Source of the DNA: Natronomonas marina | Lineage (GTDB): Archaea; Halobacteriota; Halobacteria; Halobacteriales; Haloarculaceae | Length of the DNA stretch: 64,000 bases | Assembly (NCBI RefSeq): GCF_024298905.1 | Contig: NZ_CP101154.1 | Location: 3,746,932 to 3,810,931, forward strand | Direction: 5' to 3' | Shown: positions 50,576 to 53,751 of the stretch, piece by piece | Layout: every line of letters starts with the position of its first letter | Position numbering within the stretch: the first letter of the stretch is position 1 | Translations under genes and position numbers: made by a program | Notes under the pieces: model-generated | Database searches by the model: none | What the model saw: only the letters and a program-made list of their open reading frames with translations | What the model was told of the DNA's origin: nothing

Positions 50576-50635
50576 CGGCCCGCGGCGCTCGCCGCTGAAC
50601 GAAGGCTTTTGTGTTCGATTCGGCTACCTGTAGGC

Positions 50636-51286
50636 GTGGGTTCCCCGTTCGACGTACTGCGTGTCGACCCCGACGCCGACGACGACGAGATAAAACGGGC
50701 GTACAGGCGACGCGCCAAGGAAGCGCACCCCGACCAGGGCGGTTCGGTCGAGGAGTTCCAGCGGGTCAAGGCGGCCTACGAGGCGGTCCTCTCGGGGCGG
50801 GCCGAACCGCTCGAGGACGCCGACGTCGAGGACCCGGCCGCCGACCCGGGGCCCGACGAACCCGAGCGGACCGAGGTCGAGTACCTGAACTACGAGGTGT
50901 TCGACGACTACGGCTGGTCGCTGGACGACGAGGACCTCTTCGAGCGGGCGGCCGACGCGGGGCTGGACTCGACGGACTACGGCCGCTTTCTCGTCGAACC
51001 GGCGGAGACGCTCCTCGAAGCGGCCGAGAACCGCGGCTTCGCGTGGCCCTACGCCTGCCGCGGCGGCGCCTGCGCGAACTGCGCCGTCGTCGTCACCGAG
51101 GGCGAACTGTCGACGCCCGTCGACCACATCCTCCCCGACGAGATGGTCGAGCGCGGCATCCGGCTCTCCTGCGTCGGCAAGCCGCTGACCGACGAGCTAT
51201 CGGTCGTCTACAACGTCAAGCACATGCCGGACCTCGAGGAACTGCGCCTGCCGCCGCGGCCCTTCGAGCGCGCACAGGACGACTGA
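50636..51286 (+). CDS. J-domain/[2Fe-2S] ferredoxin fusion protein
   Basis: The 216-residue protein joins an N-terminal J domain (residues 1-50, with the HPD motif at 31-33 in EAHPDQGG) to a plant-type ferredoxin (about 80-205). The cluster ligands are Cys141, Cys146, Cys149 and Cys179 in YACRGGACANCA and LSCVG. Haloarchaea have a similar J-domain ferredoxin. It may bring electrons or an iron-sulfur cluster to Hsp70 clients. The GTG at 50636 is chosen so that the J domain is whole. It begins the cluster that includes LemA and the GIDE-like gene. Confidence 0.85.
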   Translation: MGSPFDVLRVDPDADDDEIKRAYRRRAKEAHPDQGGSVEEFQRVKAAYEAVLSGRAEPLEDADVEDPAADPGPDEPERTEVEYLNYEVFDDYGWSLDDEDLFERAADAGLDSTDYGRFLVEPAETLLEAAENRGFAWPYACRGGACANCAVVVTEGELSTPVDHILPDEMVERGIRLSCVGKPLTDELSVVYNVKHMPDLEELRLPPRPFERAQDD

Positions 51287-51371
51287 GGCGGCGCTCGACG
51301 CCCGGTTTCTTCCGGTCGGTCGGCTGAACGGTGCGGGTGATTTATGTCGTCGCTCGCTGCAGTGGCTCCCG

Positions 51372-52076
51372 ATGGTACTGGAAATCATCGGTGGGTTCGT
51401 GGTGCTCGTTCTGCTGGCACTCGTGGTGGGGTACGTCGTCAGCCTCTACAACCAGCTCGTGCGGCTGCGCGAACGGGTCGACCAGGCCCGCCAGAACATC
51501 GACGTGCTGTTGAAGCAGCGCCAGGACGAACTGACGAAACTCATCGACGCGGCACAGGAGATGATGGACTACGAGGAGGAGGTTCTCACGCAGTTGACGG
51601 AGGCCCGCGAGAAGGCCGAACGCGCCTCGACGCCGTCCGAGGAGGCCAGCGCCGACAAGGCCGTCCGGAACGCGATGGCGTCGTTCCGCGCCCGCGTCGA
51701 GGACTACCCCGAACTCCGCTCCCAGGAGAACCTGATGCAGTTCCAGGAGCGCATCAGCGACATCGAGAACCAGGTCGCCGACCGCCGGGAGTTCTACAAC
51801 GAGGCCGTCACGCAGTACAACACCCGCATCGAGCAGTTCCCCTACGTCGTCATGGCGACGCAGTTCGGCTTCGAGGAGGAGGAACTGTTCACCGCCAGCG
51901 AGGAGGAGACAGCCGACGTCGACGTCGGGGCGGCGTTCTCCGGGTCGGACTCGGGTTCGGCTTCCGGGTCGGGCTCCCCGAGTTCGTCGGGTTCGGCTTC
52001 CGGTTCCGGTTCGCCCGGCACGTCCGACTCGGCCACCGGGTCGGGCCCGGATTCGGCGCCGGGTTCGGACTCGTGA
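51372..52076 (+). CDS. lemA: LemA family membrane protein
   Basis: The 234-residue protein has one N-terminal transmembrane helix (about 3-24) then the LemA helical core: YNQLVRLRERVDQARQNIDVLLKQRQDELTKLID and MQFQERISDIENQVADRREFYNEAVTQYNTRIEQFP. The last 45 residues are a flexible Gly-Ser-rich tail. LemA proteins are widespread but biochemically undefined; some take part in membrane signalling. It overlaps the next gene by GTGA at 52073-52076, so both are probably made together. TATA is not obvious; a common transcript with the J-ferredoxin gene is possible. Confidence 0.85.
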   Translation: MVLEIIGGFVVLVLLALVVGYVVSLYNQLVRLRERVDQARQNIDVLLKQRQDELTKLIDAAQEMMDYEEEVLTQLTEAREKAERASTPSEEASADKAVRNAMASFRARVEDYPELRSQENLMQFQERISDIENQVADRREFYNEAVTQYNTRIEQFPYVVMATQFGFEEEELFTASEEETADVDVGAAFSGSDSGSASGSGSPSSSGSASGSGSPGTSDSATGSGPDSAPGSDS

Positions 52077-52888
52077 CCGTACCCGCGGGGTCCGGGGGAC
52101 CGCTCGCGTCAGTGTCGGCAGCCGTCGGCCTGCCGCTGCAGGTCGGGCTCGGCGAGTTGGCCTTCCTGCTCCTGTTCTTCGCGCTCGCGCTCTTCCTGAT
52201 ATACCAGGGGTTCGACGAGTACCGGGCCAGCCGGCTCATCCAGGACACGGCCACCGAGAAGGTCCGGTCGGTCGCGGCCGGCCGAACGGAGCTGACCGGT
52301 ACCGCCGACCCCGACGAGACGGTCTTTCACCGGCCGTTCACCGACGGCGAGTGCGTCTACGCCCACTACCGTATCCGGGAGCACCACGAGAGCGGGTCGG
52401 ACGGCTCCGACTGGCGGACCGTCGACTCCGACACCTGGATCGCTCCCTTCTTCCTCGACGACGGGACCGGCCGCATCCGGGTCGAGCCCGAGCGGTCGAC
52501 GACGTTCGAGATCTCCGACGAGCACTCGACGACCGTCACCGTCGAGGAGGACCACTCGCCGCCGCCCGACGTTCGGGAGTTCCTCGAGGAGGTGTCCTCG
52601 GCGGGCCCGGCCGACGACAAGCGGCGGTACGTCGAGGCGGTCATCCCGCCGGGCGAGGAGGTGTACGTCCTCGGCGGCGCCGAACAGCGCGACGACGAGT
52701 CGGGGGACAACGAGGACCGCCTCGTCGTCCGCCGCGACGGGGGCAGCGACCGCTTCATCGTCTCCGATATGTCCGAGGAGGAACTCGCCTCGACGCTGAC
52801 CTACCGGGTGCCGCTTCTGATCGTCTTCGGGCTGGCCATCAGCACCGGCTGTCTCTACGTGCTCCTCCGGATGTTCGGGCTGGGGTGA
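52073..52888 (+). CDS. GIDE-domain (MULAN/E3-ligase-like) membrane protein
   Basis: The 271-residue protein has a helix at each end (about 22-42 and 248-268) and a soluble middle domain. The domain contains GRTELTGTADPDETVFHRPFTDGECVYAHYR...APFFLDDGTGRIRVEPE, a pattern close to the GIDE domain of eukaryotic mitochondrial ubiquitin ligase MULAN, but with no RING finger. The start is GTG, overlapping lemA by four bases. Bacterial and archaeal relatives often sit beside LemA genes, which argues for a shared membrane function. Ligase activity is not expected without the RING. Confidence 0.7.
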   Translation: MTVPAGSGGPLASVSAAVGLPLQVGLGELAFLLLFFALALFLIYQGFDEYRASRLIQDTATEKVRSVAAGRTELTGTADPDETVFHRPFTDGECVYAHYRIREHHESGSDGSDWRTVDSDTWIAPFFLDDGTGRIRVEPERSTTFEISDEHSTTVTVEEDHSPPPDVREFLEEVSSAGPADDKRRYVEAVIPPGEEVYVLGGAEQRDDESGDNEDRLVVRRDGGSDRFIVSDMSEEELASTLTYRVPLLIVFGLAISTGCLYVLLRMFGLG

Positions 52889-52947
52889 GTCGACCGTCGC
52901 CAGCAGGCCGCCGGAGCTTTAATCGGCCGGCGCCCGAAGGCTCCGTC

Positions 52948-53751
52948 GTGGCCGACGACGAGCGCGAGGCCGAACGGACCGTCGAGCGTTCCGCCGACAG
53001 CGGCGCCGACGCCGAGCGAGCGGCCGACGCGTTCCTCGATCTCGAGGGGGAACTGTCGGCCGACGACCCGCCGCCCGAGGGTCCGAGGAGTGGCCTCGTC
53101 GTCGACGCCGAGACGGTGCCGGCCGGCGAGGTGCCGGCGTCGTCCCCGCTCGACGCCACGACGGACTCGGTGCTGGCGCTGACGCTGGAGACGGCCGACG
53201 GGCGGGCGGTGACCGACTACTTCGAGTGGCCCGACGACGGTGGTGTCGACCCCGAATCGCGGCTGGGTCGCCTGCTCGCCGCGGCGAACGTTCCGGCCGA
53301 CGGCTTCGCCGACCTCTACGGCCGACGGCTCCCGCTGGAACGCGCCGACGGACGCTGGCGGGCGTTCGTCCCGCGGGAGCGACCGCGAGGGGCCGGCGAC
53401 TGGTCGCTGGGCGTCGCGGGGGGACTGGTGTTCAACGCCGCCGTCCTCGGCCTCGTCGCGCTCGGCGCCGCCGGGACCCCCGTCGGCGGCCTCCTGTCGG
53501 CGCTGACGATACCGTACTTCCTCGTGAACCTCCTCGTCCTCCCCTACGCCACCTACCGGGACGCGACGTACCTGCGGAGCCACAGCGACTGGGGGCAGGG
53601 TCCGCCCTTCTGGGCGACGCTGTCGATGGTACCGGTCCTGAACGTCCTCGTGAGCGCGCTGTACCTCCGGAGCCGGTCGAAGGCGCGGTTCCTCGGCGAG
53701 GAGCCGTCGCTGTCGACGCGACTCGTCCGTCGGGTCCGGGACCTCCGGTAG
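52948..53751 (+). CDS. Conserved haloarchaeal membrane protein
   Basis: The 267-residue protein has an acidic soluble N-terminal part (about 1-145) and three hydrophobic helices (about 155-175, 178-198 and 223-243) with a basic C-terminus. No catalytic motif can be seen. It sits 59 bases after the GIDE-like gene on the same strand, so it may belong to the same unit. Start is GTG at 52948, selected because the acidic N-terminus fits; function is unknown. Confidence 0.65.
   Translation: MADDEREAERTVERSADSGADAERAADAFLDLEGELSADDPPPEGPRSGLVVDAETVPAGEVPASSPLDATTDSVLALTLETADGRAVTDYFEWPDDGGVDPESRLGRLLAAANVPADGFADLYGRRLPLERADGRWRAFVPRERPRGAGDWSLGVAGGLVFNAAVLGLVALGAAGTPVGGLLSALTIPYFLVNLLVLPYATYRDATYLRSHSDWGQGPPFWATLSMVPVLNVLVSALYLRSRSKARFLGEEPSLSTRLVRRVRDLR

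Follow-up and report, generated by a model that had tools for sequence, protein, structure and literature searches.

A lemA gene of the haloarchaeon Natronomonas marina and the GIDE/BAM-domain gene that directly follows it are, as we conclude from sequence comparisons, a partner-specific LemA-GIDE pair, which would be the GIDE version of a more general plan in which LemA is combined with a membrane-protein partner. The strongest new point is that the subfamily of a LemA and the type of its partner appear to go together. LemA is a very widespread protein for which, to our knowledge, no function has been established, and no report of LemA joined with GIDE/BAM was found in the open-access literature searched. 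The genes lie in the window, by which is meant the whole stretch of 64,000 nucleotides analyzed here (C1:3746932-3810931 of a 3.99 Mb genome). Its GC-rich, acidic coding sequence and its relatives also indicate the class Halobacteria. A preliminary description of this DNA had grouped both genes with an upstream J-domain ferredoxin gene and a downstream third membrane gene, and had viewed the four-gene block as a possible archaeal membrane quality-control or signaling unit whose eukaryotic relatives became ubiquitin ligases. What it observed is confirmed (Table 1), but within this block a consistent linkage holds for lemA and GIDE alone.

Table 1. Features in and around the lemA-GIDE pair, with positions counted from the first nucleotide of the window.
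Feature	Position	Strand	Details
J-domain 2Fe-2S ferredoxin gene	50627..51286	+	DnaJ PF00226 and ferredoxin PF00111; neighbor, outside the unit
TATA-like ATTTAT	51340..51345	+	read from sequence; about 27-30 nt 5' of the lemA ATG
lemA	51372..52076	+	234 aa, ATG start; PF04011 3.4e-39, PDB 2etd lemA 5.6e-27, hydropathy
lemA parts			N-terminal helix aa 5-23, LemA helical domain aa 41-185, tail aa 186-234
GIDE/BAM-domain membrane protein gene	52073..52888	+	271 aa, GTG start; PF12483 E 1.5e-14
GIDE helix 1	52145..52201	+	aa 25-43, hydropathy 2.48; model helix 26-61
GIDE domain by Pfam	52373..52852	+	aa 101-260; conserved part from about aa 60
GIDE helix 2	52808..52864	+	aa 246-264, hydropathy 2.24; model helix 235-268
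Third membrane gene	52948..53751	+	267 aa, GTG start; loose companion, not core

The paired genes and their products

The LemA protein matches PF04011 at full length and well above the cut-off (134.5 bits versus 26.2, profile positions 3-147 of 149), and consists of an N-terminal membrane helix, as judged by hydropathy, followed by a helical domain that resembles 2etd. Directly after its helix the protein carries LYNQLVRLRERV, which suggests that the helical domain is located in the cytoplasm, on the same face as that predicted for the GIDE domain (see below). By score, LemA is also a homologue of the magnetosome protein MamQ, although its 79.6 bits fall far under the NF040966 cut-off of 250, and no magnetosome genes were seen among the neighboring open reading frames that were read. 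The TATA-like element ahead of lemA is the probable promoter of the two-gene unit, and TTTTAA occupies the corresponding upstream position in a relative, L085. The LemA tail (window positions 51927-52073) is a low-complexity segment rich in serine, glycine and aspartate, and L085 has a shorter form of it.

The end of lemA and the start of the GIDE gene have the bases GTGA in common, which is the four-base overlap noted in the preliminary description and is present in L085 as well. That description had also assigned the second product the helix-GIDE-helix plan of mitochondrial MULAN without a RING finger, and a profile search bears this out. The protein matches PF12483 at full length (54.2 bits versus a cut-off of 23.6, profile positions 4-156 of 160), as do 23 of the 24 members of its family at the level of a PF12483 match, and the domain sits between two membrane helices. 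Only about seven residues follow the second helix and the whole protein contains two cysteines, so a C-terminal RING is not merely absent but impossible.

An AlphaFold model of the GIDE protein, built on an alignment of three sequences, has a mean pLDDT of 43.9 and is confident only in the two membrane helices, with pLDDT mostly 67-88 over the membrane part. The model is beta-rich at this low confidence, the family profile weakly matches OB-folds of replication factor A (E 0.11 and 0.97), and one member has a weak match to an OB-fold family (0.0023). Such hints would be consistent with a membrane-tethered OB-like domain that binds nucleic acid or another ligand, with LemA serving as an accessory. 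However, none of the OB-fold matches is significant, and a Foldseek search with the low-confidence model returned no match with an E value below 2, and we consider this reading improbable.

The orientation of the GIDE protein can be predicted from charge bias, which was computed over 36 GIDE proteins as lysine plus arginine per 100 residues. The value is 21.8 in the twelve residues past helix 1 and 24.1 ahead of helix 2, versus 8.4 ahead of helix 1 and 0.5 past helix 2, while the interior of the domain has 10.0 such residues and 20.1 acidic residues per 100. By the positive-inside rule, this bias predicts that the haloarchaeal GIDE domain faces the cytoplasm and that both termini are outside.

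Linkage and shared divergence in Halobacteria

LemA is rare among the Halobacteria, being present in 6 of 116 genomes of an even sample and in 4 of the 20 genomes from the same genus as the window, and GIDE is found at Pfam level in about half of the sample (57 of 116). Ten LemA loci were compared by tblastn with the window proteins (the window, L038, L039, L040, L041, L042, L046, L047, L048 and L086; L085 and L046 denote one locus), and these comprise all six LemA-bearing genomes of the sample and four further loci. The expectation that the two genes would be linked in other genomes proved correct, in that GIDE directly adjoins lemA in the same orientation at 10 of 10 of these loci, and again in the bacterium Providencia. 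In L039, L040 and L041, the adjoining GIDE escaped the Pfam search and was recognized by its relatedness. Eight loci have the order LemA>GIDE, whereas L047 and L048 have GIDE>LemA, and wherever the starts can be placed, the two genes overlap or are no more than about 50 bases apart. The adjacency is far from chance; the chance product is about 3e-17, a value that treats genomes as independent, is inflated by kinship and serves only as an order-of-magnitude guide.

Most GIDE-bearing haloarchaea carry no LemA, so GIDE is not generally dependent on it. Stand-alone prokaryotic GIDE/BAM proteins, two of which are encoded in this genome, belong to the same family and have the same charge pattern around their helices, but unlike the window GIDE they have no adjoining lemA. 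In the GIDE tree, the LemA-linked proteins cluster within one region (4 changes versus 9.6 when labels are shuffled).

No gene other than lemA and GIDE is common to all ten loci. An interpretation of the J-domain ferredoxin, lemA, GIDE and third genes as one archaeal quality-control operon can draw on the shared orientation of all four in the window and in L046, and on the presence of the third gene 3' of GIDE in L042, which is from another family. Yet the J-domain ferredoxin is found beside the locus elsewhere only in L046, which is of the same genus, and the remaining eight haloarchaeal LemA loci lack it; the ferredoxin part of the protein passes the cut-off of NF041393, the haloarchaeal Fer model of NCBIfam, whose scope is halo-wide. 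The ferredoxin gene is a neighbor of the pair within the genus only. Similarly, the third gene is missing from 7 of 10 loci (it adjoins the pair in the window, L046 and L042 only), it occurs elsewhere with neither LemA nor GIDE in its flanks, and a TATA-like CTTTAAT at 52917-52923, 5' of the gene, suggests a leaderless transcript of its own, probably from its own promoter. The third gene is a loose companion of lemA-GIDE and not a core part, and a single four-gene operon has little probability.

The product of the third gene is soluble in its N-terminal half, carries several hydrophobic stretches toward its C terminus and has no match in Pfam or NCBIfam. It belongs to an uncharacterized haloarchaeal membrane family, whose representatives lacking LemA or GIDE in the flanks covered by the analysis are L097-L104 (G087, G094, G035, G003, G067, G012, G023, G063); several of the homologues come from one genus (g9).

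LemA and GIDE have also diverged together. Their trees contain the same three linked groups (L039/L040/L041; L038/L047/L048; and window/L046/L042/L086), the last of which includes one unlinked protein, L006, in the GIDE tree. The window and L047/L048 are from one genus, yet they fall into different groups for both proteins. The three groups cut across genera and families, and therefore species history alone is insufficient to account for the matching trees. Pairwise LemA and GIDE distances are correlated with a Mantel r of 0.90, or 0.75 when near-copies are removed (permutation p 0.0004).

LemA partners in methanogens and bacteria

When the phylum was searched with a profile, GIDE was recovered from 34 of 295 genomes, all of them Halobacteria of the order to which the window genome belongs. 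The methanogens of this phylum have a DUF2207 or M48 gene as the neighbor of lemA, and a search for GIDE at that place gave none. Closely related DUF2207-LemA pairs have been recorded in a published note (PMC12631010). The bacterial sample is small and consists of plasmid records, with partners assigned partly from annotation and partly by reading unannotated open frames. In these records, lemA adjoins TPM in eleven cases from several phyla, M48/HtpX in Listeria, Prevotella, Tistrella, Mycobacterium and Bacteroides ovatus, DUF2207 in Sulfitobacter, Acetoanaerobium and Sinorhizobium, and DUF3137 in Thermus and Mycolicibacterium. The LemA-TPM (YgcG), LemA-HtpX/M48, LemA-DUF2207 and LemA-DUF3137 arrangements likewise consist of lemA and an adjoining membrane-protein gene on the same strand, whereas the window pair differs in that the partner is GIDE and the LemA lies in a separate clade. 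DUF3137 was considered as a GIDE-like domain and rejected, the sequences being unrelated (hhalign 0.1%).

One bacterial case of GIDE was encountered in the plasmid-record sample. A Providencia alcalifaciens plasmid (NZ_OU659131.1; L082:3935-6493) carries, in an operon-like arrangement, lemA, a GIDE-like gene, a second lemA and a gene for a small membrane protein. The GIDE-like protein is annotated as hypothetical and has no Pfam match, its domain falling under the Pfam threshold, but profiles from which it was left out do recover it (hmmsearch 1.8e-15; hhalign 95.6%, 1.3e-8). No DNA match to this locus was found in E. coli genomes. Viral contigs yielded no relatives, and GIDE was found in 0 of 199 genomes of Bacillota, a group without a positive control. 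The recovery of GIDE from Halobacteria only within the phylum, the different LemA partners of methanogens and the occurrence of the pair in a gammaproteobacterium speak against the archaeal character proposed for the unit in the preliminary description. The adjacency and joint evolution of the two genes in haloarchaea and at least one bacterium suggest an ancient membrane device made of two proteins, though not the ancestor of a ubiquitin ligase.

When 44 LemA proteins were labeled by partner type, their tree was found to sort by partner, with 10 changes compared with a mean of 25.8 for shuffled labels. The TPM-type LemAs constitute one clade (100/100). The GIDE-type LemAs, from haloarchaea and Providencia, also form one clade, with moderate support (85/91, and present in 81% of bootstrap trees); one of the Providencia LemAs is a long branch.

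These data also bear on the idea that LemA and GIDE are an old, often transferred cassette whose products never touch and serve separate membrane processes. The patchy distribution and cross-genus grouping do indicate transfer as a unit, and GIDE mostly stands alone. Nevertheless, the pair has been kept despite the inverted gene order in L047 and L048, the two proteins co-diverge, and LemAs of different phyla group by the type of their partner, as expected if LemA fits its partner. We consider it rather unlikely that the products are unconnected.

Proposed role and comparison with MUL1/MAPL

According to the mechanism we favor, lemA and the GIDE gene would make up a membrane unit of two genes with translational coupling. 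LemA would be anchored by its single N-terminal helix and the GIDE protein held by its two helices, with the LemA helical bundle and the GIDE domain both predicted to be cytoplasmic and the two products predicted to interact on the inner side of the membrane. LemA would then scaffold or regulate GIDE in a partner-specific manner, much as other LemA subfamilies are associated with HtpX/M48, TPM or DUF2207. The sequences themselves establish the domains, the overlap, a linkage kept in independent contexts and in both gene orders, the co-divergence and the sorting of LemA by partner, whereas the complex, the orientation, the scaffolding and the envelope task are predictions. We lean toward the view that the pair acts together, with LemA scaffolding or regulating GIDE at the cytoplasmic face, and have lower confidence regarding its exact task. 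That task would probably be membrane or envelope upkeep or sensing, rather than ubiquitin ligation. By analogy, a membrane-maintenance role is plausible because of the other partners of LemA (HtpX/M48, TPM and DUF2207) and scattered expression reports, such as the increased expression, under membrane stress, of lemA and of a TPM gene in a Flavobacterium sppA mutant (PMC13236525).

A tentative generalization, possible rather than probable, is that LemA proteins are partner-matched membrane scaffolds, with each subfamily dedicated to one effector (a protease, TPM, DUF2207, DUF3137 or GIDE). In this scheme, the prokaryotic GIDE/BAM effector would act at the cytoplasmic face, and the ancestral BAM task would be LemA-assisted and unrelated to ubiquitin. 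The sorting of the LemA tree by partner would hint at one common rule behind the function of these proteins, and a tight, co-evolving pair supplies a defined partner for both LemA and BAM/GIDE. The GIDE family is common in Halobacteria, some of which are amenable to genetics, and what a GIDE protein without RING does could therefore be tested directly.

The eukaryotic MAPL/MUL1/MULAN proteins, which combine BAM/GIDE with RING, also have the PF12483 domain between two membrane helices, whereas the window protein has no C-terminal RING and adjoins lemA. On the basis of this common domain family and helix-domain-helix plan, LemA-GIDE might be regarded as the precursor, in prokaryotes, of the mitochondrial ubiquitin/SUMO ligase, an ancestral unit for membrane quality control to which a RING was added later. 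Against this stand the recovery of GIDE from Halobacteria only within this phylum and the fact that we know of no LemA link in eukaryotes. Archaeal and bacterial proteins with BAM/GIDE have already been described, none of them with a RING, and the prokaryotic BAM clade was placed apart from eukaryotic MAPL in a tree that left the ancestry unresolved (Wideman and Moore 2015; PMC4457424). In human MAPL, the domain is located in the intermembrane space and both termini are cytosolic (PMC4457424), which is opposite to the orientation predicted here for the haloarchaeal proteins. The same authors stated the ancestral function of the MUL1 BAM/GIDE domain as an open question (PMC4457424). A forerunner relationship is thus highly improbable, and the ubiquitin-ligase ancestry considered in the preliminary description is unsupported.

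Other GIDE proteins were noted in different settings. The two further paralogues in the window genome are located at G000:C1:2036399-2037130 (L002) and G000:C1:2136909-2137628, the former being flanked by an SDR gene and an apparent ribonuclease J gene, with no lemA adjoining. GIDE domains end very long open frames of 995 and 611 codons in L028 (G047:C1:2373518-2373865) and L025 (G044:C27), respectively. On the Haloferax mediterranei plasmid pHME132 (L084:3494-4738), a GIDE domain slightly under the Pfam cut-off is part of a DUF3592-GIDE fusion protein, whose gene adjoins one for a HEAT-repeat protein.
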